Below, one piece after another: positions 1-38,428 of a stretch of DNA of 64,000 nucleotides. The notes under the pieces were generated by a model that searched no databases, had not been told where the DNA came from, and saw only the letters and a program-made list of their open reading frames with translations. Positions within the stretch are counted from its first letter, which is position 1. Each line of letters starts with the position of its first letter. A program made the position numbers and the translations under genes. Origin of the DNA: Mucilaginibacter empetricola (lineage in GTDB: Bacteria > Bacteroidota > Bacteroidia > Sphingobacteriales > Sphingobacteriaceae); NCBI RefSeq assembly GCF_024808665.1, contig NZ_JANUBZ010000001.1, forward strand, positions 186,001 to 250,000. Reading direction: 5' to 3'.

Positions 1-2884
1 TAACACCGGTTTAAAATATTTTTATAACGATAACAACGGGAAATTAAATCAACTTAATTACCCCCTGCTCGATAATTCGTATACTTCCGTTATCCTGTTT
101 CAGGCAAGCCTCGATCCAATAAATCAGTTAAACAACGCCTATCTCAGAACCTACCTGGCGTTTAATACCGGCAACACCATTTTCCCTACCTATCTGCGTT
201 CAGATGTGGGTAATATGATATCGCTGATAGCCAATTGCAATTTTGCGGCTAATCCGGATGCGTTGCCGTTTAGCCTTCCGGCAGATAACGCTTCGCTGCT
301 TGTTTTCAGCAGTTCTGACAAAGCAGGCACCCTGCCATCCTATTTATTAATGCAGGGCGGCTTTTTTGCCAGTACGCCCAACACTAAACCGGTTAACCTG
401 CTTTGCGGGCTTTCGGGGGTTGAAACAATATCGGTTAACCCGCGAAATGATAATTACCCTGGCGATTTTCTTTTATTTATCACCGGGCAGCCCGCTTATG
501 CACCTCTTTTCCCATTTCCTGACAATCAGACGTTTACCAACAACCCGCTGCTTACAGATGATTATCTGAGTGCCTGGGTTTCGGTGGTTTCTTCTACCGG
601 TCCATCTAACATTGCACAAAACACCGTACCTATCCGTTACTATTCACAGCCAGCGGGTGCTTCCCTTTATGCTGTTACGGATATTACCGATAAAACGACC
701 ACACCATTTCTTGGTTTTTACGAACCGGTAACCGCTGCTCTTGAAGTTTCAAACGCTCCGGTTTACTTCCCACTGGCCTTTTACGGCTCATTTATTAAGG
801 CAGCAACAGCCGGCGGAGACATTGCTTTATTTGAAAACAAAATTCTTAGCCCATGGCGAAAGATCACTATAGAAAACGCCGTTTTACCGCAAAAGGTAAC
901 GATGAGGAAGTTAAAACCGCCGGTACCAACGGTTGATCCAACACCATCAACAACGCCGCAGGGTTTAATGGTATTGGTTGATGAACAACAAAATACATGG
1001 CAAGAGCTTATTCTGGCAAAAAACTATGCAGGCACCTCGCCAAACCCAGGTCCGTCAGATTTGCTTACGCTGGATTTTGTGGATTTAAACCCGCGCCTGC
1101 AAAGCGCATTTCAAACTAACCAGCAGTTTTTGGTTATAGGTTTGGATAAGCCATTGCCTGATGATCCATCTCAAAACATACTGGGCACTTTTAACAATAC
1201 CATGGAGCTGGAAGGATGGCCCTTTATATTAAATGTGCCTCAGCAAAATACTTATGGCCAGTTTAATAATGTGCTCATCTTTAAATTTTGCAAAGGAACG
1301 TTGTATGATCGTGTACAAAACCCGGTTTTGTGGACTAACCCTGAAGATTTTAACGAAACATCGCAGGATGGCCTGAATACCATATCAGATTGGCTAACCG
1401 CTTATATTAAGGATGGTATTGACAAGGGCAAAGGTGCAAATCCTACCGATCCTGATTTTGCCAACTTTGCCAGCATTGTAACCGATCCCGACTGGAACGG
1501 TATACTGGCACTTAAAACTGATATCGGCTTAAAAAATTTTCCGGCAGAATTGCAGGGCTTGCTGGCCGGCATTGACCTTTCTATGTTCAATGCACATCAC
1601 TTTGGTATAAATGCCAATCAAATTAAAACAGCAACCGTAAATGGCAAAACGGTGGTATCCATGGATGATAAAAGTTCCATGTTTGGTCTTATTTATTATG
1701 TAGATCCGGCTTTTGCGCCATATACTAATGATATCGATAGCTATAAACAAACCCTAACGTTTAATCCAGCATCTGCTTACGATTTTAAAACGTTAATGCT
1801 GAAAGTGCTCTTTGAAAATTCAAAGATCAAGAGCTTTAAGAGTTTTATCCAGCTAAGTGTTTATAAACTGTTCGACAGCCCGGTTAAGCAAACTCCCGGA
1901 CGCGACAATATCCTGATACTTACCGGCAGTTACGAAGATCATAACGGCTCGCCGGCTTATACTTTTAACGGTTACGATGATGACCTTATCCCGCTAAATA
2001 ATTCATCATTAGGCATTGTTGAAATTATACGTTCAAATTTCAGCACGCTTACGCCAACAATGCTCGAGCAAAGCGAAAACCTGGTATTTGCGCAATTTGC
2101 CTTATGGGGATATCTCAACTTCACCAAACCAACCGGGATGGATGTTTTATCATTTGGCTCGGCAGATCCGGCTAATCCGGGCACAGCTAACGGCTTATCG
2201 TATTCGCAATTACTTATTAAAATGAATTTCAGCCTGGATACACCGGCTATAAAAACATTTGAATTTGATATCAGCGAAATCAGCTTTGATATCCCAACCA
2301 GTACCCCACGATCAGCAAGTTTGTATAACCATTTCCCAATCACTTTAACCAGTTTGGTTGGGGGCGATGCAAAAAACCTGCCGGCAAATCTTGGCTTTAT
2401 TCCAATTTCTACACCTAACGTAGTTAATACCAGTGTACCCACAGATAAGTGGTACGGTTTAATTTACGATTTCAATTTAGGCACGCCGGGCGCATTGGCT
2501 GCAAGTGCCGGTTTTAAATCGAGCATGATGTTCGCCTGGTCGGTAGTCGGCGGTTCAGTTTTCACCGGGCTAAAACTCCCCGGCATGAGCTCGCAAAGCA
2601 AAATGCTAAGCTTGCAGGGTGTATTGAGTATTGATATTGCATCCATCAAACTATTAATGGCAAAAACAGACGAAAGCGAAAAAGATGCTACCGCATTTCT
2701 ACTGATGTTAAACAATATTACACTGAAGTTTTTAAGTAAAAAGTTCCCGTCAGGCGCCAGCATTGATTTTTACCTCTTTGGCGATCCGGCTGCAACAGCA
2801 CAGCCCACCAGCATGGCCTGGTATACGGCCTATCAAAAAGACAGCAAATCGAGCAAAAAGAATAACCTATCACTAAACCCATAA
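1..2884 (+). CDS. Large beta-rich protein of unknown function, 5' end outside window
   Basis: The reading frame is open from the first bases of the window (codons from position 2), so the gene is cut at its 5' edge. A GTG at 206 is only an internal candidate, not the likely start. About 960 residues are visible. They contain many short hydrophobic/polar alternating segments and many Asn, Thr, Pro and Tyr, with no membrane helix and no catalytic motif I recognise. A stretch near position 2450-2650 (GLIYDFNLG, then MMFAWSVVGGSVFTGLKLPGM) resembles in style the beta-strand-rich first third of the giant protein at 5883, so the two may share a fold. That is an impression, not an alignment. The C-terminus is Lys/Ser-rich. 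The next gene starts two bases after the stop, which implies one operon with the two metallo-hydrolases and the giant protein. Function unknown. Confidence 0.75.
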   Translation, partial: NTGLKYFYNDNNGKLNQLNYPLLDNSYTSVILFQASLDPINQLNNAYLRTYLAFNTGNTIFPTYLRSDVGNMISLIANCNFAANPDALPFSLPADNASLLVFSSSDKAGTLPSYLLMQGGFFASTPNTKPVNLLCGLSGVETISVNPRNDNYPGDFLLFITGQPAYAPLFPFPDNQTFTNNPLLTDDYLSAWVSVVSSTGPSNIAQNTVPIRYYSQPAGASLYAVTDITDKTTTPFLGFYEPVTAALEVSNAPVYFPLAFYGSFIKAATAGGDIALFENKILSPWRKITIENAVLPQKVTMRKLKPPVPTVDPTPSTTPQGLMVLVDEQQNTWQELILAKNYAGTSPNPGPSDLLTLDFVDLNPRLQSAFQTNQQFLVIGLDKPLPDDPSQNILGTFNNTMELEGWPFILNVPQQNTYGQFNNVLIFKFCKGTLYDRVQNPVLWTNPEDFNETSQDGLNTISDWLTAYIKDGIDKGKGANPTDPDFANFASIVTDPDWNGILALKTDIGLKNFPAELQGLLAGIDLSMFNAHHFGINANQIKTATVNGKTVVSMDDKSSMFGLIYYVDPAFAPYTNDIDSYKQTLTFNPASAYDFKTLMLKVLFENSKIKSFKSFIQLSVYKLFDSPVKQTPGRDNILILTGSYEDHNGSPAYTFNGYDDDLIPLNNSSLGIVEIIRSNFSTLTPTMLEQSENLVFAQFALWGYLNFTKPTGMDVLSFGSADPANPGTANGLSYSQLLIKMNFSLDTPAIKTFEFDISEISFDIPTSTPRSASLYNHFPITLTSLVGGDAKNLPANLGFIPISTPNVVNTSVPTDKWYGLIYDFNLGTPGALAASAGFKSSMMFAWSVVGGSVFTGLKLPGMSSQSKMLSLQGVLSIDIASIKLLMAKTDESEKDATAFLLMLNNITLKFLSKKFPSGASIDFYLFGDPAATAQPTSMAWYTAYQKDSKSSKKNNLSLNP

Positions 2885-2886
2885 TT

Positions 2887-4362
2887 ATGAAGACCGGGCA
2901 CGTTGTTTCAGCTATTTTCATTAAAATGACCAGCCGTTTGCGCCGTTCATTTATCCCGGCTATTACAGTCATAGCTATTTTAAGTGGTTTTTCGATTATA
3001 GCTGCCGCGAAACCGGGCCGGCCAATAACACACAAAAAGGCTAAAACCGTAACCACGCTTGTAAATACAAGCCCGGTGGTAAGGCTTGAGATTCACCACA
3101 TCAATATAAATAATGGCGATGCCTCAGTAATAAGGTTGAGGCATAAAGACGGTACAGAAACCAAGGTATTGATTGATGGCGGACAATCAGATGCGACGAC
3201 TTATTTAGTACCGTATATTAATGCCGTATTTAAGGACGCCAATTTTCAATATACCATCCTTACACATTACCATAACGACCATTATAAAGGCCTGCGGGCC
3301 CTGGGAACCGGTGCTATCAGAAGCGAGTATTATATTGATTTAGGTGGATATAATATGGAGGACGATGTTGAGCCGGGCAAGCTGGCACTGATACAGCCTA
3401 AAGACATCATCTGCCCGTGGACTGATTCGACAGGGGTTTTTGAAAAATCAATGGCTGGGTATATAGCATCAATCGGCATAGCCGCCAACAACTACGGACT
3501 AAAACGTTATATGCCGCTCTCTAAACCAGGCGACTCTATACAATATATGGTTGGCGTTAAAATACCACTTGGCGTTTTTACACAGGGTACAGCCACTGTG
3601 CCAATTGAACTGAGATGTGTTGCCGCCTGGGGATTTACCCAGGATGATAACAAGGTGACTGACGACTGGCATGAAAACGCAAGTAAAAACGATCCTTCAT
3701 TAGGGTTTGTATTGGAGTGCGGCGAATTCCGTTACTTTTTTGGCGGCGATATGGGAGGCAGCTCAGGTAGTAATTATATTGACCAGGAAACAACATTGGC
3801 TAAGGGTTTTGCCTACCTATACAAAGGTGCCAAATCATATTACAAACCAGCTGCAACATACGATGGGCATATTTGTGGTTTTAAAGCTAACCATCATGGT
3901 AGTGCAGAAAGTAACAACAGCACCTTTTTAGGTCAAATGCATCCCGCAGTTTGTGTAACATCGGCAGGAAGTAATGACGCCTGGCACTTGCCTTCAATTC
4001 CTTTTCTTATCAGGTTAAATGCTACCACTCCGATAACACCGGCTGCGGATTTTCCAACGGACCCAACGCCCCCTCCCTTTTTAAAAGCGCAAGGATTTTT
4101 CTTTACAAATCTTTACAATTTCACCAAAGGGAATGACTCAAAAACAGAAGCCAAAAAGCTATTTGACAATAGGTTAAAGACAGCTTTTCAATACGGAAGC
4201 ATCGGCACAACTGATGTGAAAGCCGGATATGAAGTATTTTTGCTGCTGGATAATAATCAAACGGTAGATTACAGAAGACAAAGTGCTTTTGCTGTGTCAG
4301 ATATAGATACCGCCTATAAAGTGAGTCCTATTATAGCTGTTATTTATTGCCATCAAAAATAA
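2887..4362 (+). CDS. Exported metallo-beta-lactamase-fold hydrolase (ComEC C-terminal-like), copy 1
   Basis: 491 residues. A basic N-terminus followed by a hydrophobic segment (about residues 20-41, ending AAAKPG) looks like a signal peptide or membrane anchor. The zinc motif HxHxDH is intact at H127, H129, D131 and H132 (THYHNDHYKG). Later come an Asp-containing strand (FFGGDMGG), a conserved ANHHG histidine pair and a WHLPS histidine, in the order known for the metallo-beta-lactamase fold. The opening strand HHININNGDAS and the ANHHGS motif are like the C-terminal domain of ComEC/Rec2. Substrate unknown; phosphodiester or other ester hydrolysis outside the cytoplasm is an inference. It starts 2 bases after the upstream stop and is followed after 40 bases by a close paralogue. 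Start chosen as the first ATG; M14 is an alternative that would keep the signal. Confidence 0.85.
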   Translation: MKTGHVVSAIFIKMTSRLRRSFIPAITVIAILSGFSIIAAAKPGRPITHKKAKTVTTLVNTSPVVRLEIHHININNGDASVIRLRHKDGTETKVLIDGGQSDATTYLVPYINAVFKDANFQYTILTHYHNDHYKGLRALGTGAIRSEYYIDLGGYNMEDDVEPGKLALIQPKDIICPWTDSTGVFEKSMAGYIASIGIAANNYGLKRYMPLSKPGDSIQYMVGVKIPLGVFTQGTATVPIELRCVAAWGFTQDDNKVTDDWHENASKNDPSLGFVLECGEFRYFFGGDMGGSSGSNYIDQETTLAKGFAYLYKGAKSYYKPAATYDGHICGFKANHHGSAESNNSTFLGQMHPAVCVTSAGSNDAWHLPSIPFLIRLNATTPITPAADFPTDPTPPPFLKAQGFFFTNLYNFTKGNDSKTEAKKLFDNRLKTAFQYGSIGTTDVKAGYEVFLLLDNNQTVDYRRQSAFAVSDIDTAYKVSPIIAVIYCHQK

Positions 4363-4402
4363 ACCGATCAAAAAAATATAATGTAAGCCTAAACCAGCAA
4401 GT

Positions 4403-5830
4403 ATGAAAACGCATCAACATAAAATAACCCCGTTTGCAAAAAAGACACCAGCTTGGAGAATGTTTGTTGTTTTCTTTTTGTACGTAGTTGCAGCACCGGC
4501 TTCAACCATTGCAGCAACTAAACCCGCGAACGCTGTTTTAAACAACAGCCCGGTAATACGTTTGGAGATACATCATATCAACATAAATAATGGCGATGCT
4601 TCGGCCATAAGGTTGGTACATAAAGATGGCACCGAAACTAAAGTACTAATTGACGGTGGTGAGCCAAAGCCGACAGACAACTTATTACCTTATATACAGG
4701 GAATGTTTAAAGATGCACAGTTTCAATACATCGTTTTAACACACTATCATAAAGATCACTATAACGGGCTGACTGCTTTAGCTAACGGCACCTTAAAAAG
4801 CGAATATTATATTGATTTGGGGGGATATAATATGAGAGGGGCTGTATCTCAGGGAAACCTGGCTTTAATACAACCCCAAGACACAATTTGCCCGTGGACA
4901 GGTTCGGACGGAGTTTTTGACGGCACCATGGGCGCTTACGCATTGGGCATTGGCGCTGCTGTTGATCATTACGGACTAAAGCGCTATATGCCTATTTCTA
5001 AAGATAATGATCATATTCAGGATATGGTTGGAGTTGTAATACCACTTGGCAACTTTGAACGAAATAGCGTTAGCGTACCAATTAACTTACGTTGCGTTGC
5101 CGCCTGGGGATTTACCCAGGGAAATGGTGCTGTAGTTGATAACTGGAAAAAAGGTGCAAGTAAGAACGACCCGACGTTAGGATTTGTGCTGGAATGTGGT
5201 GAGTTTCGTTATTTTTTTGGCGGCGATATGGGTGGCGATGCCAGTAGCTCTTATATCGATCAGGAAACAACACTTTCTGAGGGCTTTGCTTTTCTGTACA
5301 AAAATTCGGTATCATATTTTAATCCAGGAACGGCTTATAATGGACACGTTTGTGGTTTTAAAGCCAACCATCACGGCAGCGATAAAAGCAATAACGATGT
5401 GTTTTTAACCAATATGCATCCATCTATATGCGTAACTTCGGCGGGAGACCACAGCGGCTGGCATTTGCCTTCTGTAGGTTTTATCGACCGTTTATCAACA
5501 ACTACCCCTATTACGTTGCCAACAGATATACCTTCAACTGAGTCGCCCACTGTATCGGCCCAGGCTTTTTTATTTACCAATTTGTATAATTTCGGCGGCA
5601 ATAACGACTCGCTCGATGAAGCCGACAATCGTTTTGGCCACCGGGAAAGAACAACCTATAGTTATGGAACGAGCGGGACCCAGGAGTACAAAAGGGGATT
5701 TGAAGTCATCGTCTATCTCAATATCCCGGACGTCGATATGACAAAGGTAAGTGCATACCAAACACTAGGTGTTTTAGATAACTTTCAAACAACCGGTGGC
5801 GAGGTGGTTTTTTGCCACAAAACATTATAG
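4403..5830 (+). CDS. Exported metallo-beta-lactamase-fold hydrolase, copy 2 (tandem paralogue)
   Basis: 475 residues, clearly homologous along its whole length to the preceding gene. It shares HHININNGDAS, THYHKDHYNG with H114, H116, D118 and H119, RCVAAWGFTQ, VLECGEFRYFFGGDMGG, GFKANHHGS and SAG..WHLPS. All zinc-ligand positions are conserved in both copies, so both should be active. The N-terminus has a hydrophobic signal segment (about residues 19-38, ending IAATKPA). The two differ mostly in signal peptides, the loop after the ANHHG motif and the C-terminal 60 residues, which suggests an old tandem duplication with divergence in substrate or partner. The gene sits 52 bases before the giant gene in the same orientation. 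Substrate not identifiable from sequence. Confidence 0.85.
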   Translation: MKTHQHKITPFAKKTPAWRMFVVFFLYVVAAPASTIAATKPANAVLNNSPVIRLEIHHININNGDASAIRLVHKDGTETKVLIDGGEPKPTDNLLPYIQGMFKDAQFQYIVLTHYHKDHYNGLTALANGTLKSEYYIDLGGYNMRGAVSQGNLALIQPQDTICPWTGSDGVFDGTMGAYALGIGAAVDHYGLKRYMPISKDNDHIQDMVGVVIPLGNFERNSVSVPINLRCVAAWGFTQGNGAVVDNWKKGASKNDPTLGFVLECGEFRYFFGGDMGGDASSSYIDQETTLSEGFAFLYKNSVSYFNPGTAYNGHVCGFKANHHGSDKSNNDVFLTNMHPSICVTSAGDHSGWHLPSVGFIDRLSTTTPITLPTDIPSTESPTVSAQAFLFTNLYNFGGNNDSLDEADNRFGHRERTTYSYGTSGTQEYKRGFEVIVYLNIPDVDMTKVSAYQTLGVLDNFQTTGGEVVFCHKTL

Positions 5831-5882
5831 TGCTTAGCTAAACGGCCCGAAACAAAAAATTTACACCTGAAACCTTTTTAAA

Positions 5883-8800
5883 ATGGATCTGCAACAATTA
5901 GCCACCGACCTGAAAAAAAAGGTAAGCAATCAACAGCTTACACTGGATAATTCTGTTATTAAGCAGGATACCTTTGCTGCTTTGCTCATCTTTTTCAGCA
6001 ATAATACTATTTCACTAACTGGCATTACCGATCCTGATAAACAGATCAGTGTTTCGGGCAAGGTTTTAACCATTACGGGCAGCCAGAGTTTATTTAGTTT
6101 ATCAATAAATGTTACCATAACCCTTACCCAACAGGATGATGACACGCTGAATAGTAACTATGCAACTTCCTTCGCCGGTATTACGTTCGGCAATCTAACC
6201 AGTTGGGGCATTTTACCTGCGGATGCGTTTGGCTCTTACACGCCACCTGGATTAGGGTTCGATACTGTTTCCATGACGATAGTATCCAATTCTAAACAAC
6301 TTGTTCAGAATTGGGCCGCCATTAATTCACAAAATACTTTATCGCTTATTGATAGTATCGGTTTAAACCTTACCAATATCGGTTTTGGCATTCAGCGCTC
6401 ACCTAACCCCTTAAGCAGCGGTTATGATATCTCTTTTTCACTAACCGGTACATTTAAGCTGGGTAATACTAACCTTACCGTTAGCGCGCTGGTGCCTGTA
6501 GGTTCAGGAGCCACTAAAGGGCAGTGGAACGTTACCCTATCATCAACCAGTACCCTGGCCGATGGCATTGCAGATTTAACGCAGATAGTTTTTGGCAACA
6601 ATCTGTTTGCCAGCCTGCCGCCGGGTTTCCAGGACGCCTTGAGCTTTAGTCTCACCAAATTACTCATCGTATTTTCACCAGCAAACGGGGGTGTTAAATT
6701 TATACAAATAGCTATAGCACGCCCGGCAGATAAGCCATGGGAGGTAGTAAGCGGCTTTACTATTACCGGCGCCGGAGCTACGTTTACGTTAAACAAAGCA
6801 AATACCAGCTTTGCATTAAGCACCAATGTTTTTGGCAAGTTCCTGATAGGACAGCCTTCAGCACCTACAAAAGTTTACCTGGATGTATACCTCTATATCC
6901 CTTCGGGACAAAACGACTGGCTGGCTGAAATCAACGGATCAATCCAAAACAACAGCATCACTGATGTATTTTCATCATTACCGGCATCAAACGGGCAATC
7001 GCTACCGGCATTCCCAATAGGGTTGCAACTGGAGCAGATAACGCTCGACTACCTGAATATCACCTATAGTCCATCGTCCAAAACAATAACCGAAATAAGT
7101 TTCAGCGTCACCAGTATTCTGGAGCTCAATATTTTTGATCTGTTCAAAATTCAAAACCCATATACCGCGCTCGATATTAAAAACCCTACGTTAGCTTCAC
7201 AGCGTGCGCTTACCGGTAACGTAGGCGGTACTTTGGTAGTGGCTGATGTGCCTTTTGACCTACTGGCCAATAAACCGGTAGCCGGATTAGGGTGGACCTT
7301 CTCGGCAACTATGCAGCCGGGTACTTCTATTGCTATTTTAGATCTGGTAAAATATTTCTTAAAAACACTCAACATCACCAGCCTGCCCGATTGGGTTAAC
7401 AAAGCATCGCTTGATATTTCGGGCATCATGGTATCCATGTATGTACCGGCCACCGGCGAAATCGATCAGAATAAAAAATACCATGTTGAGGGCACCGTGC
7501 AATGGGCGCTCAATGTAAATAGTTTTGTATTGCCCGAGCTTACTGCCATAGTGGCGATGGATTATGTAAACGGTAAAGCAACCGGTAACATAGCCGTATC
7601 GGCAATATTTTTAGGGCTTCCGTTTGAGATAGGATACAAATTCGGCTCGCCAAATACCGAAGTTTATCTGGAATGGTTAGGCATACAAGCCGATTACACG
7701 CACGATGCAGATAAAAACACCGACACTATTCTGATCACCTTTGCTGATATGTCGCTCGGTGAGATCATCACCCATTTAATTGCATCATTTGATCCTGAGT
7801 TTTCATTATCTGCTCCATGGGATGGACTGAACTCTATCAACCTGAGCGGCTTGTCATTAAAATACGTCCGCAATATTGCCGACGAGACCAAAAACTCAAT
7901 GACAGTTACTTACCAGGCATCTATTAACCTGGTATTTCTGGAAATTGATAAGCTTACACTTACAAAGGATGAGACGGGCGTATTCCTCGGATTTGAAGGT
8001 AAGTTCCTCGGTTTCCCGATTACATCTACCTCGCCAAACCCAGATGCACAGAAACTGGCAGGCAAAGGCTCAGATGTTCGCGACCTCGGCAGCATACCAA
8101 CCCCGGGATTAGGCGCCCAATATTTTGATCTCGATTATCTCGGCCTCGGCCAAAAGGTGGCGCTCTATCCATTTCAGGACCTTAAAACCGTTGACCAGGC
8201 GCTTACCAGTTTAAAAAATGTGTTCAAAGATCCGGTTAAACCGGCACCGGGCCAACCGCCTATTTTGCCAATAAAGATTAAACCGGCGACTCCTGTTTCA
8301 TCAACACTAATTTATAGCGACGAAAGCAGCTGGTTGGTTGCTACTAAGTTTACTATTATTGAAGCCATAACCTTGGGCGTAATTTTTAACGATCCTAACC
8401 TTTACGGCTTGCTTGTTGCCCTTAACGGCGATAAAATGAAAGGCCTGAATGGCCTTAACTTCCAGATTCTTTATAAAAAAGTTACCGACTCAACAGGCGT
8501 TTACCAAATTGAACTAAAACTACCTGATGCTATCCGCGAATTGCAATTCGGTGCCGTTTCGGTAACCTTACCCATAATCGGTATTGATATTTATACCAAC
8601 GGCAGCTTTAAGCTCGATTTCGGATTTCCATACAATATGGATTTTTCGCGCTCACTTACCATACAAGCCTTTCCATTCACCGGTTCGGGCGGCTTTTACT
8701 TTGCTTACCTCAGCAACGTGCCCTCCAAAAATGTACCGGTAACCAAGGCCGGCACCTTTAATCCTATTATTGAGTTTGGGCTTGGCCTGCAACTGGGCGT

Positions 8801-11800
8801 AGGTAAATCTATTAACCAGGGCATCCTTAAAGCAGGTTTCAGTATTACGCTGGTAGGTATATTTGAGGGTGTTATTGCTTTCTACTCGCCCAACCTTCCT
8901 TCGTACCCTGGCGCTAATGATACCTATTACAAAATATCGGCAACGGTAGGTTTGGTTGGAAAACTTTATGGCGAAATAAATTTCGCTATCATTTCGGCAA
9001 CCGTTAATGTTACCGTTTATGCCTATATTCAAATGGTGGTGGAAGCTTACCGCAAAATACCGGTATACCTGGAAGCAGGGGTATCGGTGTCGGTCAGTGT
9101 TTCTATCAATTTGGGCTTGTTCTCCATCTCTATCAGCTTTAGTTTCTCAACAACTATCAGTGCATCATTTACCATCGGGTCCGACAGTACAGCACCGTGG
9201 GATTTCATTCCACCATCACAATCAGGCTTACTTGCAGCCAGTTTATCGGGGGCACCGCAACCTCCGGTTTGCCCGTCAATTACATTAAACTGGCAGCCGC
9301 TTATCCTTACCGATGCAGAAAAAGCAAATGAGTTATTGTCGGTATATTTCTTCCCGCAATTAACTGTTGCAGCATCGGGCACTGCCCAGGCAGCACAGTT
9401 TGCTAATATTTTGTATATCGATGCCCCAGCCGACGGAAGTACAAAGGATGCCTCGTTAAATAAACTGGTAAAAGGCGTTTTATACTGGAGCATCAACGCA
9501 GCCATTAACACCACCCAATCAAATACCACGCTTGATAATCTAAAAACAGAAAATGTATCGGTTGATGTATTGAAACAGATTTATGCTTACCTGGCCGATA
9601 CAACCTCCAACCCAAGCCCTGTTCCATATTCTGCTATTGAGCCATTCCTGAAAGCGTACTTTACCATCAATGTGATGGATCCCGATTATGTGCTGGCACA
9701 AAATCAGGGTAAGGCGGTAAACATTAACGCTAGTATTTTACCGCTCTTCCCCACATTGCAATTGTCGTGGAAACTGAATGGTACCAACAGCACCTTGTCA
9801 ACGCAGAATGTAGATACAAACTACATGGAAGCGGTAGAAGCAGAGCTGGAAAAATTAAAAGTAAGCTATCAAAATAATCTTGAAAGCGCCAGTGACGCAG
9901 CGGAAGAAACCTCGCACGGCATTACTTCGCTGTTTAGTGTAAACGATGCGGCCTCACAGCCAATGCCTGCATTTATTTTCCAGGATTATATTTTGATGGT
10001 AGCAAAATCAGCATTGCAGGATGCTATTGCCGAGTTTGAAAATTTAAATTATGGCATCACCAGTAGCAATGAAAGTTTAAACACGCTGGTTACTCACTTC
10101 AATCAGTTAACCTACAATTGCAGCGACGATACTGTTATCACCAATAATTTAACGCCTGCAGCCATAGCAATAGCCAATAGTTCAATAAACTTTAATACCG
10201 GGCTGTCGTTAAAAATAACTGGGCTAAGCTATCAGGTACAATACCAGGACTCATTACAAATCATTGCCGATAGGTTTAAAGTACAGGTTAGCGATTTAGA
10301 TATCGACAGCAACCTGGCCATTCAGGGTTTGATAGCGGCCAATACCGTTGTTAAAATAACCGGCTTTGCTGATTATACCATCGCTCCGGGGCAAACCATT
10401 ACCCAAATCGCGGCGGCCATGAAGCCCATAACCGGCACAACAGCAGCAACAACAGTACAGGTGCTACAGGCAGTAAAAGATTCACTGGCATTATTAAGTC
10501 TGGCAAAACTCATCCTTCCGGATATTAGCTACCCTACCACAGGCACTGATTCTTTCGAAAGTGTATCTACCTATTACGGGGTAACTATCGATTCAATTGC
10601 TAATAATCCTGTAAACTCCGTACTTACCAATTTGTTTAATACCAATACAGTAGTCATTCCTGATCTGAACGTATTAAACGTAGAGACTGTAGTTTCTACC
10701 TTCGACAAAACAGACAATATTGCGCGGATCTCGGCGCAGGCTGCACGTTACTTCCTGCATGGTATGCGCCTGCCGGTACCGGGTAACCTGGCCGTAACAT
10801 CGGCACTTTATGCACTTAATGGTCAGCAATTTGCATTGCCAACTGTAAAAACCGGCGACGACTTAAGTATCCAACTGACCAAAACAGGCGATACCGGGCC
10901 AAACTGCTGGATGAAGTTTGACAATTCCTGCGATTCATCGACCTTAAATGTTAAAATTACCGATAACACCATTAGCCGTATCAATGATCTGGTAGGTATT
11001 ACTATTGATCCGGATACCACACCACTGCCGCCTCAACCGGCGCAAATGGGCAAATGGGTAAATGAAACGTTTACCTTAAAACCTGGTTTTGCATGGCAGT
11101 ATCCCGGTAAGTTAAGCTTGCCAATAGGCACACCGCCAAACCAATTGGCAACAAGGCCAACTATCTGGAATTTTTCGGATGCACTGATCAACAAATTACT
11201 ATTGCCCGACCAGTTGGTTGTAGAGGATTTGGGGCTTGAGGTAATTTTGATGGAGAAAGACAGTGCGGGTGGATTTAAAAAGGAAACACCTAATTATGCT
11301 TTTTCAACTATTGTGGAGGTTGATATTCAAAAGATCGTCAACAAATCGGCCGATGCCACCATATTGGATAATGCTTACGAGGTAACAGGAGCGAATGATA
11401 CCGGTATTGTATACCTTGAACGTTTAATTCAATATATGAACGGAGGTGCCGGTGATGGTTTTATACAGCAGATACAGATACTATATCCGCCGGATAACAG
11501 CGGCAATACACCTGATGGCTTACAATCGGCAGAAAACAGCGATATAACCCTTGCCCTGGTACAAGCCAATCTTTCTACCGAAACAAATCCGGTTAAAGGT
11601 GCTGCTTTACTCCTGGCTGAAGCGTTGGAGAACAGGACAACTGTAAATACATTTAACCAATTTATAAGCTACCTATGGCAGTGCAGCATTACCCGCACCG
11701 GCGGTTATTACCTGTACTACAAAACCGGCGATGGAAATGGCTTGCCTTCCACCATATTCAGTAAGAGTAATACTGCCAAAATTTATGTTTTAGTTACCTA

Positions 11801-14800
11801 TAAGCAAAGCTTATCCATCAACTTTGTTAACAGCGCAACTATTGCAACACCAATAGATGCAAATGCTACTGTTTATGTTAAGGCCGATAATTTAACCACT
11901 TTATCAGCATTGGCTACTCCCGGCAATGCAGGCTTTATGCTGGAGCGTACAAAACCGGATGATTATGTTCCTGTAGAACCATATCCTATTCCGGCCAGCC
12001 CGCAAAGCCATACGCAGGATGTAAATTATCTCAACTACCAGTACAATTTAATTGGTTATCAATTAATAGAAACCAATGTATTTAACGGCGTTTGGTCGTT
12101 GTTGCCAATTGGCCCGGTAAATGAGCATGATCCTGATGAAGTAAAAAATCTAAAGGCACTTTCAGCCAAGGCCCTGCTGGATCAAAACTGGAAATACAAT
12201 TCCTTAATCCCGTTGGCTAAAAATGTGAAGGATGCCAGCCGCATACAGCCCGCTAAAGCTACATATCCGGCGGCAATTGATGACCCTTACGCAGGTATTG
12301 GAAGCGCAGTAAATGTGAGGCTGAACTGGCAGGATATGTTTGGTAATATCATCAACACCACCTTAAATAACGGGCAGCATGATATTGTTTTATCCAACCT
12401 TTATTCCGACAATTTATACTCCATTTTACAATGGCCAAGCTTAACGGCTTACTATTATTTTGCTGCTTCGGGCGGCAAAACACAGCTGGAGTTTTATGCA
12501 GTGGTTGATCCAACACGGTATACCATTACACCAAAGTTATCAAAAGATGAGGCAATCAGTAACGCCAAAATCGACATGGTAACTTACCAAAAAATATACT
12601 ACCAGCTTATTCAAAAAGATATTAAGGTAACCCTGCAAAGCAGTATTAATGCTGATGATGCCAATAGCCAGATAACTATTGATCCTTCGGTAATATCCGG
12701 CTATGCAGGCGATATCTGGGCCTATTTAAACCAGGTGGTTGCCAACCCGGCAACTGCTATGGCGCCAACTTTCCCTGCGCTTACCTTTAATATCGATTTC
12801 AATAACGCTGAGCTTATTTTTGAGTTGACTGTTCAATTCACCATCAGCCGTACAGCAAACGTGGACCCTGCCTTTGCCGGTGAAGTTGCTGTAAATGCCG
12901 CCGTAACCGCACTGAAACCAGCAACATCCGATCCATCGGTAAAAACCAAAGCCAACGATGCGCCGCCAATGCAATCGCTCACCGCATTTGCTACGCAGTT
13001 TGAAACCGTGTTTAAAGATTTGCCATCGCCGGGCAACTTCCTCAAAATAGCAGTGGGGCTCGATCGCGAAAGTAATGACAACAACGACAAGAAAATTTGG
13101 GTGATACATTTTGATACCAACGGCAAAAATGGTATTTACTACACCATTGATAATTCGCAGCAATATTTCTTTGCGCCGCAGCCGCTGGCCAACAGCCTGG
13201 AAACCTTTGACAAAGTTGCCATCAATCAATATCAATCCGGCCAAAACTATCCTATTGGGTCGTCGGTGCTCAAAACTTTCTCTGATATCGATCTCGATAG
13301 TTGGGGCCGCACCTGCCTGGAAGCTATAGATTTGTTTTTAACAGCAGAATATGCAGTACCTGCATTTTTAATTGACGGCGGTATATCGCTTCAAAAAATA
13401 CTCGATGCAAAAGAATTAATAGCCGAAGGCATTGCAGGCAATGTGAACAACATTATTGAAATTGATAAGCCTGATAACTCGAGCCTTGCAAATGCTAAAG
13501 AAAAACTGAAACAACAGTTGCTTATTCAGCTTTCCAACTCGTATAAAATCAATACCATTGTACAAAATTCGGTGAAGGTTTTATATGGCTTTAAGGGCAG
13601 CAATGAGCCGGTTACCGCGCCACCTTATGTACCACAAATGTATGGTGATATGGCGGGCACTTTTGCCACCGCGGTACGTGCACGCCATGCCGTATTTGGC
13701 GAGGATGAAAAAGTAGCTGACCAATACACACTTTCAACCGCCCGCATTCCTTTGGGCTCCGATGATGGCGGCGCCTCTTGGCTTACTTACTTGTTTACCG
13801 CCAAAGAAGCAGAGAAACACAGCAGCTTTAAGTTTAGTGATATGAAGTTTAACATTTCATACATCGAACATCAGATCGATCAGGTTAAAAACATGGGCGA
13901 ATACCTGGCATCGTCATGGTTAAGCCTCATTATTCCTTTAGAGGTTGCCTTAACCAATGTTGGCCCGGTAGAAATACCTATTGCACTCCGAAGTTATCCT
14001 ACACCGCCTTCGCTGGTTAGTCAGCAGGTTGATTATGCACCATCGGGCGGCAAAGATCAAACTACAACGCTACCACAGGCAGTACAATGGGGTTATGATT
14101 TTAATTATATGCCGCCAATTGCAGGGCAGGATCAGGTTGACATACAGTTGCAGTTTAATTACACCAACCAGAGCAGTACTTTGCGTAGTTTGTTCTATCT
14201 GGACGATGGCAGTTACGATCCAACTTTACTGCCCGCTACGCTTGCAAATTTCATAACCGTATACCCTGCAATACAGGCAGATATTGTTAGTGCGTTAATC
14301 AAATCGCCGCAGGATCCAATTGCCGTAAAAGCCGTACAAGCCTTTGGGCAACTGATAACAGACGTTGGTAATGCCTGGAAGAAATGGCACCAGGTAATTC
14401 AACAACGAAAAATGATGCTGAAAAATGCCGCAAATGCTTTACCGGTTATTACCTACAATTATAATATTGTTGAATCATCACAGCAGGATACCGGTTACCT
14501 GGTAATAGAAGTAAACCCGCTTAACTCGGCACCGTCACTTAATTTATCGCTTGCCGGATATTTGCCGGGCGATGACCATACTTTTTATAAAACGGATGGA
14601 AAGGTAAAACAATACCTGCTTTACAACGATCGTAATACCGTGCCTTTGCGTAACCTTACCATTGAAGCTTTAAGTATTTTAGAAAGGCAAAATGCCTGGG
14701 CAGGTGCACAGCTGGTTAGAAATGCCGACTTAATTGAAAAACCAGACGGTGAATTTAAAACCACTAACGAAAACTTTATTTATAAAACGCCGCTGGTTAA

Positions 14801-15296
14801 GTTTTATAATGAATTGGTACCGCTGTTGGTTTGCAATGAAAGCATATACATAGCCCAAATACAAAACCCGGGTACTCCAGTGGCGCTTAACCTGGCGGTG
14901 CACATGCAAAACATGTTTAAAACACTGTTGCAAAATGTAAATAATCTCAACCAAACTATTAAAGTAGAATGCCTGTACCTGTATAACCTTAATGGCACCG
15001 ATAGCTTTAGTCAGATTGCCATACCGGTATTGCTTGCTCCGCCCAAACTGTTTGAACTGGGTAAAGACTGGGATATTGGGCAAGCCGGCAGCTATTGCGT
15101 AGGCAGTACAAGCTACGCCTGCAATTTAACCGAAACTATATTGGATTGGTTTAAAAACCAGGGGCCATCATTAAACAATGGCAGTTTGCAGTTTGTAATT
15201 GAAATATATGGCAACAATGGCGGCAACAATTTGCCTGTACTGAAACTGAATAACTTGCTACTGGAAGTAATTTACATCCATGAATTATTGAGTTAA
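5883..15296 (+). CDS. Giant 3137-residue beta-rich protein with LysM-like segments, function unknown
   Basis: One uninterrupted frame of 3137 codons. The N-terminus (MDLQQLATDLKKKVSNQQL) has no signal peptide, and the C-terminus has no obvious type IX sorting domain. Residues 1 to about 1110 are dense in amphipathic beta-strands, ending in a striking run of alternating Ser/hydrophobic residues (about 1068-1100); the first cysteine I find is near 1130. A helical charged stretch lies around 1310-1350. LysM-like segments begin at about 1450 (YQVQYQDSLQIIADRF), 1498 (YTIAPGQTITQIA) and 1550 (TDSFESVSTYYGV). The remainder to 3137 is mixed, with no enzyme motif seen. From memory it may belong to the group annotated as DUF6603, which I could not check. 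It ends the operon begun by the partial large protein and the two metallo-hydrolases. A role as a secreted, surface or toxin-like assembly is speculation. Confidence 0.8.
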   Translation: MDLQQLATDLKKKVSNQQLTLDNSVIKQDTFAALLIFFSNNTISLTGITDPDKQISVSGKVLTITGSQSLFSLSINVTITLTQQDDDTLNSNYATSFAGITFGNLTSWGILPADAFGSYTPPGLGFDTVSMTIVSNSKQLVQNWAAINSQNTLSLIDSIGLNLTNIGFGIQRSPNPLSSGYDISFSLTGTFKLGNTNLTVSALVPVGSGATKGQWNVTLSSTSTLADGIADLTQIVFGNNLFASLPPGFQDALSFSLTKLLIVFSPANGGVKFIQIAIARPADKPWEVVSGFTITGAGATFTLNKANTSFALSTNVFGKFLIGQPSAPTKVYLDVYLYIPSGQNDWLAEINGSIQNNSITDVFSSLPASNGQSLPAFPIGLQLEQITLDYLNITYSPSSKTITEISFSVTSILELNIFDLFKIQNPYTALDIKNPTLASQRALTGNVGGTLVVADVPFDLLANKPVAGLGWTFSATMQPGTSIAILDLVKYFLKTLNITSLPDWVNKASLDISGIMVSMYVPATGEIDQNKKYHVEGTVQWALNVNSFVLPELTAIVAMDYVNGKATGNIAVSAIFLGLPFEIGYKFGSPNTEVYLEWLGIQADYTHDADKNTDTILITFADMSLGEIITHLIASFDPEFSLSAPWDGLNSINLSGLSLKYVRNIADETKNSMTVTYQASINLVFLEIDKLTLTKDETGVFLGFEGKFLGFPITSTSPNPDAQKLAGKGSDVRDLGSIPTPGLGAQYFDLDYLGLGQKVALYPFQDLKTVDQALTSLKNVFKDPVKPAPGQPPILPIKIKPATPVSSTLIYSDESSWLVATKFTIIEAITLGVIFNDPNLYGLLVALNGDKMKGLNGLNFQILYKKVTDSTGVYQIELKLPDAIRELQFGAVSVTLPIIGIDIYTNGSFKLDFGFPYNMDFSRSLTIQAFPFTGSGGFYFAYLSNVPSKNVPVTKAGTFNPIIEFGLGLQLGVGKSINQGILKAGFSITLVGIFEGVIAFYSPNLPSYPGANDTYYKISATVGLVGKLYGEINFAIISATVNVTVYAYIQMVVEAYRKIPVYLEAGVSVSVSVSINLGLFSISISFSFSTTISASFTIGSDSTAPWDFIPPSQSGLLAASLSGAPQPPVCPSITLNWQPLILTDAEKANELLSVYFFPQLTVAASGTAQAAQFANILYIDAPADGSTKDASLNKLVKGVLYWSINAAINTTQSNTTLDNLKTENVSVDVLKQIYAYLADTTSNPSPVPYSAIEPFLKAYFTINVMDPDYVLAQNQGKAVNINASILPLFPTLQLSWKLNGTNSTLSTQNVDTNYMEAVEAELEKLKVSYQNNLESASDAAEETSHGITSLFSVNDAASQPMPAFIFQDYILMVAKSALQDAIAEFENLNYGITSSNESLNTLVTHFNQLTYNCSDDTVITNNLTPAAIAIANSSINFNTGLSLKITGLSYQVQYQDSLQIIADRFKVQVSDLDIDSNLAIQGLIAANTVVKITGFADYTIAPGQTITQIAAAMKPITGTTAATTVQVLQAVKDSLALLSLAKLILPDISYPTTGTDSFESVSTYYGVTIDSIANNPVNSVLTNLFNTNTVVIPDLNVLNVETVVSTFDKTDNIARISAQAARYFLHGMRLPVPGNLAVTSALYALNGQQFALPTVKTGDDLSIQLTKTGDTGPNCWMKFDNSCDSSTLNVKITDNTISRINDLVGITIDPDTTPLPPQPAQMGKWVNETFTLKPGFAWQYPGKLSLPIGTPPNQLATRPTIWNFSDALINKLLLPDQLVVEDLGLEVILMEKDSAGGFKKETPNYAFSTIVEVDIQKIVNKSADATILDNAYEVTGANDTGIVYLERLIQYMNGGAGDGFIQQIQILYPPDNSGNTPDGLQSAENSDITLALVQANLSTETNPVKGAALLLAEALENRTTVNTFNQFISYLWQCSITRTGGYYLYYKTGDGNGLPSTIFSKSNTAKIYVLVTYKQSLSINFVNSATIATPIDANATVYVKADNLTTLSALATPGNAGFMLERTKPDDYVPVEPYPIPASPQSHTQDVNYLNYQYNLIGYQLIETNVFNGVWSLLPIGPVNEHDPDEVKNLKALSAKALLDQNWKYNSLIPLAKNVKDASRIQPAKATYPAAIDDPYAGIGSAVNVRLNWQDMFGNIINTTLNNGQHDIVLSNLYSDNLYSILQWPSLTAYYYFAASGGKTQLEFYAVVDPTRYTITPKLSKDEAISNAKIDMVTYQKIYYQLIQKDIKVTLQSSINADDANSQITIDPSVISGYAGDIWAYLNQVVANPATAMAPTFPALTFNIDFNNAELIFELTVQFTISRTANVDPAFAGEVAVNAAVTALKPATSDPSVKTKANDAPPMQSLTAFATQFETVFKDLPSPGNFLKIAVGLDRESNDNNDKKIWVIHFDTNGKNGIYYTIDNSQQYFFAPQPLANSLETFDKVAINQYQSGQNYPIGSSVLKTFSDIDLDSWGRTCLEAIDLFLTAEYAVPAFLIDGGISLQKILDAKELIAEGIAGNVNNIIEIDKPDNSSLANAKEKLKQQLLIQLSNSYKINTIVQNSVKVLYGFKGSNEPVTAPPYVPQMYGDMAGTFATAVRARHAVFGEDEKVADQYTLSTARIPLGSDDGGASWLTYLFTAKEAEKHSSFKFSDMKFNISYIEHQIDQVKNMGEYLASSWLSLIIPLEVALTNVGPVEIPIALRSYPTPPSLVSQQVDYAPSGGKDQTTTLPQAVQWGYDFNYMPPIAGQDQVDIQLQFNYTNQSSTLRSLFYLDDGSYDPTLLPATLANFITVYPAIQADIVSALIKSPQDPIAVKAVQAFGQLITDVGNAWKKWHQVIQQRKMMLKNAANALPVITYNYNIVESSQQDTGYLVIEVNPLNSAPSLNLSLAGYLPGDDHTFYKTDGKVKQYLLYNDRNTVPLRNLTIEALSILERQNAWAGAQLVRNADLIEKPDGEFKTTNENFIYKTPLVKFYNELVPLLVCNESIYIAQIQNPGTPVALNLAVHMQNMFKTLLQNVNNLNQTIKVECLYLYNLNGTDSFSQIAIPVLLAPPKLFELGKDWDIGQAGSYCVGSTSYACNLTETILDWFKNQGPSLNNGSLQFVIEIYGNNGGNNLPVLKLNNLLLEVIYIHELLS

Positions 15297-36451: not shown

Positions 36452-38422
36452 TTATGATTTTTTTGCCAGTACCAATACCACTTTATTAAAATCGGATGAG
36501 GCATTGATAATTTTCCTGAACTGTTCAAACTGCTCGAGCGGGTAAGAAGGTTTGCGGTATTCTTCTATAATATGGATGGATAACACATTGCCCTTAATTT
36601 CATAGCTGGAAACAAAGCCCATGGTTAACTCGCCATTATCTTTATAAGTTTGATCAATTTTTAAATCATTGGGGTTGGTAACCGTATAGCCATCGGGTAT
36701 CACAAAATCTATCTTTCGTTCTTCCACATGGCCAAAGTCGATATCAATAGGGTTCTGCCGTGCTTTTTCCTGGTACATTTCCACTTGCGGCCCTATCGCT
36801 AAACCAATTTTCACCAATAGTTTATCGCCGGCCTGCTCAATTAAAGCGTCAGATTTTGTTTTGATGTGCAGCACTACCGGTACATTGGTATTAGCCACTT
36901 CAAATTCCTTATTCAAAACTTCTGATGACAGAATATGATCGGTATTGGCAACAGATTTGGCCATTTCTTTAATAAAAGAGCTTTTCTGTTCGTCATTAGC
37001 AAAATTAAAAGCATCCCGCATGTTAACCGCGGCATAGCCTGCAAAAGTTCTTTTGGAGTCGATAGCCAGTGAATCAAGATTTTTGCTCATCTCGATCTTT
37101 GAATCAATATTATCGTACGATTTACTGTAGTCTTCCAATTCAATAGGTTTTATTTCGGCTATAGCCGCCGTAACGCTACCAACAGAAATTGCTTTACAAA
37201 ACAAGCCATTGGCATCGGCCCATAATGGTAAAATCCATGGGTAGCGGTAGTCGGGGCGGGTGGTTGCCAAAAATTTATTTTCGGCAGGGAAATAAAACAG
37301 GGGATTATCGCAGTTGTTCCAGTTTTCAAATCCCTTGTCAATAATAAACTTGCTTCTGTTTGCCGTTAAAACAATCTGATATTTTATTCCTAAATTTTGA
37401 TAAATAGCAGCATACAAACGTACAATACCCATGGTGCCTGCTATCTTAGTTTTTAAAACAGTTTCCAATCTATTGGCATCGGCCTCACTCTCTTCTTCGT
37501 TATATGAATAGGCTTTCTTCACGTAATTTTCAACCGCAATTATCCGGGGCTCTTCTCCGTCTATTTTATCCCAACCGTTGTTCTTAACCAGGTCTGCTAC
37601 CTTATTATACTCCTTGTCGGTATAATAAGTGTACACGGTAAAAGCTCTTTTTGCCAGTTCGTTCCAGGTAAAAAGACGCTCGCCTTTGCGGGTAGCATCG
37701 TTGTATGAAAGTTTAAATTCAATCCTTTTTAAATTAACATCATCAAAAGCATATTTTTCCGCCTCGGCGCCTTCAGAACCTTTGGTACTACAGAGAGTAG
37801 TTCTTTTTCCATTAACAACGGTATCTGTTGGCGTTAATTGAAAATTGTAGGGCTTTATCTCAAACTTCAATCGTTCGGGCGCTATTATTTTAAAGGTTGT
37901 TTGCAGTATCGGTACGCTTTCCTGTAATTCTTCACGACCAAAAAATGAAGTGGACCTTTTAAAGGTGTATAAAAACTCTATCTCGCACCCTTTTTCTAAA
38001 CCATCCAGGGCGAATATTTTATACACGTTGCCGTTGTTTTCCTTCAGATCCTTAATGTTGTTTTTATCAAGCTCGATGATTTTACCGCTTGGTAGAATAG
38101 TACGCGCCTTTACATCCACCACATCCGAAGTTTCGCTAAACCCCAGGTATATTTTATTAAAGGTTTCTATACCCCGGTCATTGTTGATGTGTATAATGCG
38201 GTGAAGCGTGTAATATTCTACCAGTTCGTTTTTTGATTCATCGGTATATTCAATTCTCCTGTTATCATACAAAACAACAGCGCTCTCTTTGCTGTACTTA
38301 TCGTCTATGGTATGAATAGCGGGTTTATCCGCCCATGTTTCCCTTTCAATATTTTTATTTTGGCTATACAGCTGTTGAAATGATAATAAACCTACTATCA
38401 CCGGGAATATTTTTTTGTTCAT
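36452..38422 (-). CDS. DUF3857/transglutaminase-like exported protein with degenerate active site
   Basis: 656 residues. Signal peptide MNKKIFPVIVGLLSFQQLYS. A DUF3857-type beta domain (about 50-230: YTLHRIIHINNDRGIETFNK, DVKARTILPSGKIIELDKNN) is followed by a transglutaminase-like helical part (about 260-400) and a C-terminal beta region. By eye against the downstream-encoded paralogue, the catalytic Cys of GDCKDM becomes Thr (AGTMGI) and the His of SNHMIC becomes Asn (WNNCDNP). The enzyme is therefore probably inactive and may act as a binding or regulatory partner. Third gene of the operon, 6 bases after the second. Confidence 0.8.
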   Translation of the reverse strand: MNKKIFPVIVGLLSFQQLYSQNKNIERETWADKPAIHTIDDKYSKESAVVLYDNRRIEYTDESKNELVEYYTLHRIIHINNDRGIETFNKIYLGFSETSDVVDVKARTILPSGKIIELDKNNIKDLKENNGNVYKIFALDGLEKGCEIEFLYTFKRSTSFFGREELQESVPILQTTFKIIAPERLKFEIKPYNFQLTPTDTVVNGKRTTLCSTKGSEGAEAEKYAFDDVNLKRIEFKLSYNDATRKGERLFTWNELAKRAFTVYTYYTDKEYNKVADLVKNNGWDKIDGEEPRIIAVENYVKKAYSYNEEESEADANRLETVLKTKIAGTMGIVRLYAAIYQNLGIKYQIVLTANRSKFIIDKGFENWNNCDNPLFYFPAENKFLATTRPDYRYPWILPLWADANGLFCKAISVGSVTAAIAEIKPIELEDYSKSYDNIDSKIEMSKNLDSLAIDSKRTFAGYAAVNMRDAFNFANDEQKSSFIKEMAKSVANTDHILSSEVLNKEFEVANTNVPVVLHIKTKSDALIEQAGDKLLVKIGLAIGPQVEMYQEKARQNPIDIDFGHVEERKIDFVIPDGYTVTNPNDLKIDQTYKDNGELTMGFVSSYEIKGNVLSIHIIEEYRKPSYPLEQFEQFRKIINASSDFNKVVLVLAKKS

Positions 38423-38428
38423 GCTTTA

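Follow-up and report, generated by a model that had tools for sequence, protein, structure and literature searches.

A constant pair of very large bacterial proteins, BIG1 and GIANT, with an exchangeable module between them

What do two very large bacterial proteins of no recognised family do together, and which of their neighbours belongs with them? The question is raised by the beginning of a 64,000-nucleotide stretch of Mucilaginibacter empetricola DNA (the window; G000:C1:186001-250000 of a 5.8-Mb assembly), where these two proteins, named here BIG1 and GIANT, enclose a pair of exported proteins with the metallo-beta-lactamase (MBL) fold. A first-pass annotation, made without database searches, described four plus-strand genes with gaps of 2, 40 and 52 bases, the last encoding 3137 residues, and the list of open reading frames (ORFs) confirms this arrangement. 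The BIG1 ORF in the window (2-2884) is open on its 5' side, where the window edge cuts it; its ATG lies at G000:C1:185381, 620 bases upstream of this edge. Neither large protein had appeared to carry a signal peptide, and the simple hydropathy rule by which we judged signal-peptide-like N-termini gives the same result, now with BIG1 at full length. The features of the locus are as follows (window positions).

1..2884, plus strand: 3' part of the BIG1 gene, encoding residues 208-1167 of an 1167-residue protein
2887..4362, plus strand: slot enzyme 1, an exported ComEC-type MBL-fold protein of 491 residues
4403..5830, plus strand: slot enzyme 2, an exported paralogue of slot enzyme 1, 475 residues
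5883..15296, plus strand: GIANT gene, 3137 residues, without signal peptide
6228..7802, plus strand: GIANT residues 116-640, beta-rich, with four mutually related repeats (each about 125-140 residues)
8115..9191, plus strand: GIANT residues 745-1103, the most conserved region, for which a porin-like beta barrel or a closed beta tube is predicted
10224..10292, plus strand: GIANT residues 1448-1470, a degenerate LysM-like stretch (E 0.022, below the cut-off)
10725..15293, plus strand: GIANT C-terminal region, residues 1615-3137, conserved, of no known family

A constant pair around an exchangeable slot

A GIANT profile was run against about 85,000 genomes (one per species); 103 loci were confirmed and the best 80 kept. 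Counts out of 80 refer to the kept loci and counts out of 81 to these loci plus the window. BIG1 lies directly upstream of GIANT, with only slot genes between them, in 78 of the 80 loci, all found with GIANT alone; in the two others (L030 and L039) the contig starts just upstream of GIANT. The first-pass annotation had taken the giant protein and the MBL hydrolases as the unit and had made conservation of the MBL genes beside the giant gene in relatives a test of its reading. This MBL-centred reading was rejected: an MBL adjoins GIANT in just 7/81 loci, plus one locus with a divergent MBL, and the constant partner is BIG1.

The best 80 of the 103 loci are distributed among Bacteroidota (46), Pseudomonadota (24), Acidobacteriota (5), Bacillota (2), Cyanobacteriota (2) and Actinomycetota (1). 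In the window's family, GIANT is matched in 4 of 201 genomes, in one of them over the C-terminal part only, while the BIG1 profile is matched in 6/149 genomes from the genus and in 4/395 drawn from the phylum (the window's own genome is included in each count). BIG1 is also present in eight plasmid records; five plasmid regions were taken, and in the four with annotated genes BIG1 is followed by GIANT-related genes, which are split in two in two of these regions. With its patchy occurrence, its spread over six phyla and its presence in plasmid records, the cassette (BIG1, slot and GIANT) is best explained as horizontally spread. A prophage origin was ruled against, since BIG1 has no match among 50,697 phage records. 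An empty insertion site could not be shown because, in the nearest relative, the homologues of one left-flank gene and one right-flank gene lie on different contigs. Literature text searches, whose coverage leaves out most subscription papers and preprints, returned no paper describing the BIG1-GIANT pair.

The slot content was classified using hidden Markov models (HMMs) that had been seeded with members of the loci themselves and were applied to the six-frame translated gap between BIG1 and GIANT and to the GIANT N-terminus. One module class was assigned in 79/81 loci: EEP, which is DNase-I-like (44/81); NFGH, a family of about 520 residues (20/81, 12 of them fused to the GIANT N-terminus); ComEC-type MBL (7/81 including the window, one of them fused, in L020); a pair of small proteins (6/81); a divergent MBL (1/81, L089); and an HNH-like protein (1/81, L092). 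Of the four plasmid loci, two likewise have NFGH joined to GIANT-related sequence. The slot is empty in two Pseudomonas loci (L090 and L091), but upstream of BIG1 both have the gene of an exported EEP; the one examined, that of L090, is MnuA-like (E 2e-4, below the cut-off).

On a FastTree phylogeny of 77 BIG1 rows, the seven module labels change 9 times, the least possible number being 6 and the mean for shuffled labels 32.2; the module and its large partner mostly travel together, with exchanges at depth. One starred clade of this tree comprises two MBL and three NFGH loci, and the BIG1 of the MBL-bearing L020 is 46-48% identical to those of the NFGH loci L023, L026 and L027 (48% for L026). 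The EEP-bearing L019 falls inside the MBL group, in a placement made unsure by long branches, and the phyla are intermixed over the tree. The window's genus has six cassettes, with MBL (window and G286), NFGH (G280) and EEP (G292, G269 and G210, at weak HMM scores of 26-48 bits). Since the other BIG1s of the genus are merely 32-37% identical to that of the window, these cassettes represent separate acquisitions and not recent swaps. As read from the sequences, modules are exchanged on a constant carrier, as is characteristic of polymorphic toxin systems.

Signal-peptide-like starts were found in all eight MBLs judged, including both of the window, in 1/40 EEPs (doubtful), and in none of the separate NFGH genes (0/8), the small-pair proteins (0/12), the divergent MBL (0/1) and the HNH-like protein (0/1). 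BIG1 has such a start in 2/79 cases, both doubtful, and GIANT in 1/81, namely in L020, where signal peptide, MBL and GIANT form one protein. The metal-site residues of this fused MBL are intact; the alignments suggest loss of the MBL C-terminal part and of about 140 residues from the start of GIANT, and a deletion may thus have produced the fusion.

Slot enzymes and the large proteins

The two MBLs of the window are mutually 55-56% identical and both have signal-peptide-like starts, which bears out their description as exported paralogues. The label "ComEC-like" was also appropriate, because a profile search among solved structures places ComEC chains closest to them (E 8e-9). Both pass the Pfam Lactamase_B model, and only MBL families are matched in Pfam. 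The HxHxDH, GGD and HHGS residues are invariant in nine aligned MBL proteins of seven loci. The window MBLs thus share the MBL domain type of ComEC/Rec2 with its HxHxDH and HHGS residues, but they are free-standing and exported, score 37 and 31.6 bits with the NCBIfam ComEC model (cut-off 190) and have no competence domain beside the MBL. In PADLOC they match LmuA (E 1e-11 and 2e-10) and an RT-associated MBL model. As a separate observation, the MBLs (window:2887-5830) also match part of PHROG 7043, a 1077-position profile with a phage-tail annotation, at positions 620-843 and with E down to 2e-13.

The catalytic-type positions N, E, H, GDFN, DN and SDH, whose roles we presume to be those in DNase I, are intact in 10 of 12 aligned EEPs; the EEP of L043 has S for N and GNFN, and that of L083 has GNFN and SSH. 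PF03372 is found at E 0.01 or better in 9/12. DNase gamma, DNase I and sphingomyelinase C are among the solved relatives of the EEP profile, the three top rows being a designed protein, in one low-complexity stretch. The HNH-like protein of L092 stays under the cut-offs of Pfam and NCBIfam, its resemblance being to PtuB (E 6e-7). With EEP, ComEC-type MBL and the HNH-like protein, up to three unrelated nuclease-type folds share one slot. NFGH has no recognised relative in the Pfam or PDB profiles, the PDB profiles giving only chance-looking picornavirus capsid rows (best E 0.018); a GT-B resemblance, suggested by motif shape, is unsupported by the same profiles.

The first-pass annotation had called the locus unrecognised, and this description stands, LysM-like stretches aside. 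In Pfam, NCBIfam, PADLOC and PHROGs, nothing significant was found for the window part of BIG1, and GIANT has weak LysM-like stretches but no significant family. Profiles of BIG1 (53 rows) and of GIANT residues 1-1135 (54 rows) have no significant match among PDB sequences; the profile of GIANT residues 1615-3137 (27 rows) matched LysM proteins. LysM is strong in two distant giants (nine stretches in L090 and six in L092), and a further LysM region is present in 6 of 27 GIANT C-terminal halves, that of the window not among them. The structure searches, which the annotation had proposed together with the profile searches, leave BIG1 with no confident match among PDB structures, its AlphaFold model having a predicted local distance difference test score of 83.8 and a predicted template modelling score (pTM) of 0.75. 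Invariant columns number 30 in the BIG1 alignment (53 rows) and 85 in the GIANT alignment (32 rows), where 40 of them fall at residues 835-1106.

For GIANT, AlphaFold predicts repeats of ~130 residues followed, in the most conserved part, by a porin-like barrel or tube of about 20 strands, the final six of which would be 18-23 residues long. The relationship of the repeats is evident from the hhalign probabilities for 246-375/376-500 (97.6), 376-500/501-640 (94.9), 116-245/376-500 (93.2) and 116-245/246-375 (78.5), the remaining pairs giving 13.8 (246-375/501-640) and 1.4 (116-245/501-640). Conservation is higher on the hydrophobic than on the polar face in 22 of the 26 strands within residues 61-620 and in the last four long strands of the barrel; strands 957-979 and 982-1003 do not have this pattern. 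Outer-membrane porins differ from GIANT in this respect, since in its last four long strands it is the hydrophobic side that is better conserved; moreover, its predicted barrel or tube is part of a 3137-residue protein without signal peptide, and identity is 5-12%. Eight Foldseek matches of the GIANT model reach E 0.001 or better; the top-ranked is an outer-membrane SlpA protein, and ApoB100 (best E 1.7e-5) and LptD (E 2.4e-4) are among them. These matches have template modelling scores of at most about 0.1 and therefore do not demonstrate a common fold.

As a separate observation, G168, a genome of the window's genus, encodes a free-standing 950-residue homologue of GIANT residues 2183-3057 (L012:10599-13451, minus strand), and no BIG1 or MBL match was found in the 20 kb around it.

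Neighbouring genes

In the window's genome, a 135-residue gene on the same strand lies 118 bases upstream of BIG1. Three small upstream families recur: the window-type family in 25 loci (EEP 14, MBL 7, NFGH 4), a second in 20 loci (NFGH 14, small pair 5, MBL 1) and a third in 20 loci, all with EEP. The window-type family accompanies three module classes and so does not follow the enzyme, and a role of its protein as cognate immunity is unsupported; the other two families keep almost entirely to one or two classes, and such a role might apply to them. In L046, two genes of the small families are found downstream of GIANT instead. A tally of any upstream same-strand ORF below 420 residues, not just of the recognised families, gave for 78 loci both ORFs with and ORFs without a signal-peptide-like start in 40, only with in 10, only without in 21 and none in 7. 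Some side-by-side ORFs of the recognised families are paralogues of each other, and one small upstream protein has a weak SKICH-like match (E 0.09). By eye, the small genes are replaced upstream of BIG1 by a pepsin-like protein in Oscillatoria (L078:1704-2882) and by a possible trypsin-like protein in Paenibacillus (L098:12971-13951), neither of which has an NCBIfam match.

Apart from the small families, clusters of flanking genes that recur in at least four loci represent widespread gene families or synteny of close strains. For PADLOC, 115 flank proteins of 150-900 residues were picked (up to two upstream and three downstream, 30/80 loci) and 97 were scanned; L046, L056, L070, L077, L086 and one protein of L037 were left out, and a few of the proteins scanned come from the small-gene families of the cassette itself. 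At most 4/97 (25 loci, without a background set) match at E 1e-20, and a defence-island setting is unsupported. Individual flanks contain an FRG-domain protein (L002:6585-7289, PF08867, E 5e-25) with a 289-residue protein of no Pfam family (L002:5624-6493), a pair situated ~11 kb upstream of BIG1, and, by eye, type I restriction-modification-like genes in the Pedobacter relative G188 (L014:10630-19178), from ~4 kb past BIG1.

In the window, the 3' end of GIANT is 3 bases from a converging gene, which its sequence suggests to be a LytTR-type regulator. Elsewhere in the window (36452-43640), two adjoining DUF3857/transglutaminase-core proteins stand beside a 1098-residue TPR/MORN-repeat protein.

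A carrier with an effector and its alternatives

Polymorphic toxin systems of the Rhs, CDI and WXG types likewise combine a large constant carrier with exchangeable enzymatic modules, among which nucleases are common. LysM occurs in some of them and giant proteins are mentioned in a survey (PMC3482391), in the consulted passages of which the BIG1-GIANT pair does not appear. Here, in contrast, the module is not C-terminal: it is an upstream gene or the GIANT N-terminus (79/81 loci, none in 2). No immunity gene was seen adjoining and no known trafficking domain was found, and BIG1 and GIANT match no described carrier. Since its module sits at the other end, no immunity gene is visible and a known carrier domain is absent, the cassette falls outside the polymorphic toxin family. 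In insecticidal Tc toxins (the TcB-TcC cocoon), giant signal-less beta-rich proteins are also combined with an exchangeable enzyme. Two of their structures appear as weak, non-significant Foldseek rows for GIANT (6h6g and 6l7i, E 0.028 and 0.035), but there is no Pfam sequence match and the module here is N-terminal.

The constant pair, the exchangeable module and the spread without regular metabolic partners are best read as a carrier with an effector. We suggest that BIG1-GIANT, itself signal-less, carries an interchangeable effector in the manner of polymorphic toxin systems without being a member of them, a proposal that we regard as evenly balanced between right and wrong. BIG1 and GIANT would form one complex, which its repeats, its beta barrel or tube and its LysM domains would enable to bind and to cross or enter a cell envelope. 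The N-terminal enzyme, mostly of a nuclease-type fold, would be the carried catalytic effector, and the complex would leave the cell through lysis or another route. Enzymes of the MBL type, having their own signal peptide, would meet it outside the cytoplasm. The LysM domains of relatives, the predicted beta tube and the exported MBLs point to the envelope or the outside as a possible site of action; delivery, target and toxicity are our inferences. The first-pass annotation had offered two roles, of which a conflict or toxin-like system fits better, its toxicity being presumed, and a surface assembly processed by the hydrolases fits less well, because elsewhere the slot holds other genes.

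Several observations weigh against the carrier proposal. No recognised enzyme occupies the slot in 26/81 cassettes (NFGH 20, small proteins 6), and two further cassettes have no slot module at all. The EEP and MBL folds also include non-nucleases, such as sphingomyelinase C among the EEP relatives, and two of the 12 aligned EEPs (L043 and L083) are without the Asp of GDFN. MBLs with their own signal peptides (8/8) would need no carrier. The module changes are rare (9), unlike those of fast polymorphic toxins. No flank cluster in four or more loci lies regularly downstream of GIANT as an immunity gene might, in a clustering at E 1e-5 that would miss a fast-changing one, and no secretion gene recurs in the cassette. 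The GIANT barrel comes from a single model (pTM 0.43) and may be a closed hydrophobic tube instead of a pore.

A bolder version, which we put forward tentatively and with considerable doubt, is a self-contained two-protein translocation device, in which GIANT would dock on a cell wall by LysM and insert its barrel or tube, BIG1 would cap or load it, and the slot enzyme, a nuclease or another, would be the payload that enters the target. If true, this would be a delivery machine unrelated to the contractile, Tc, Rhs and two-partner systems, with the payload at the end opposite to that of other polymorphic toxins.

Among the alternatives, nutrition survives best and is still unlikely: a secreted or surface-bound machine would digest an extracellular polymer, for example environmental DNA, with the giants binding polymer or lipid and LysM acting as an anchor. 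Nuclease-type modules together with LysM would suit the use of extracellular DNA at the cell wall, the MBLs are exported, one small upstream ORF often has a signal-peptide-like start, and the hosts of the scanned loci belong, we assume, mostly to free-living genera. Yet BIG1, GIANT, EEP and NFGH are without signal peptides, apart from few doubtful exceptions, no transporter or other uptake gene recurs regularly beside the cassette among the flank clusters, and the occurrence is rare and patchy.

Less probable is a carrier of lipids or other hydrophobes, in which the enzyme would modify a cargo bound in a hydrophobic groove of repeats and tube, similar to that of bridge-like lipid carriers, ApoB or the LptD jelly-roll. 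The conserved hydrophobic strand faces are as expected of an inward-facing core or groove, and ApoB100 and LptD are among the eight best Foldseek matches. Against this, those matches have the very low template modelling scores given above under a top row that is an outer-membrane SlpA protein, two strands (957-979 and 982-1003) are off the pattern, and a conserved core is usual in soluble beta proteins. DNase-like modules are also unsuited to lipid cargo, though sphingomyelinase C is among the EEP relatives.

Anti-phage defence, with GIANT and BIG1 sensing infection and the exchangeable nuclease as effector, appears distinctly improbable. Exchangeable nuclease effectors and a patchy distribution are typical of defence systems, and the slot enzymes resemble LmuA, Avs1a and PtuB in fold and partly in sequence, without reaching a curated cut-off where there is one: LmuA and the RT-associated MBL model are matched by the window MBLs, and the HNH-like protein approaches PtuB below its cut-off. 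However, the export of the window MBLs and the LysM domains of GIANT relatives point to a place outside the cytoplasm; GIANT and the window part of BIG1 match no PADLOC model, and the few PADLOC matches in the scanned flanks (at most 4/97, no background set) provide no defence-island context. Finally, a coincidence of unrelated adjoining genes without common function, which the MBL frequency of 7/81 alone might suggest, has next to no probability and is refuted for BIG1-GIANT by their adjacency in 78/80 loci over six phyla and by the repeated fusions.

Proteins of ~1200 and 2500-4700 residues that recur together in six phyla and on plasmids, and that match no family model of the scanned libraries, represent a large blank in bacterial biology. 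The unrelated and, from their residues, apparently active enzymes of one slot offer a handle on the chemistry that may be delivered. If BIG1-GIANT is a carrier, it would be a new way of bringing enzymes to or into other cells; if not, it would be a new kind of envelope machine.

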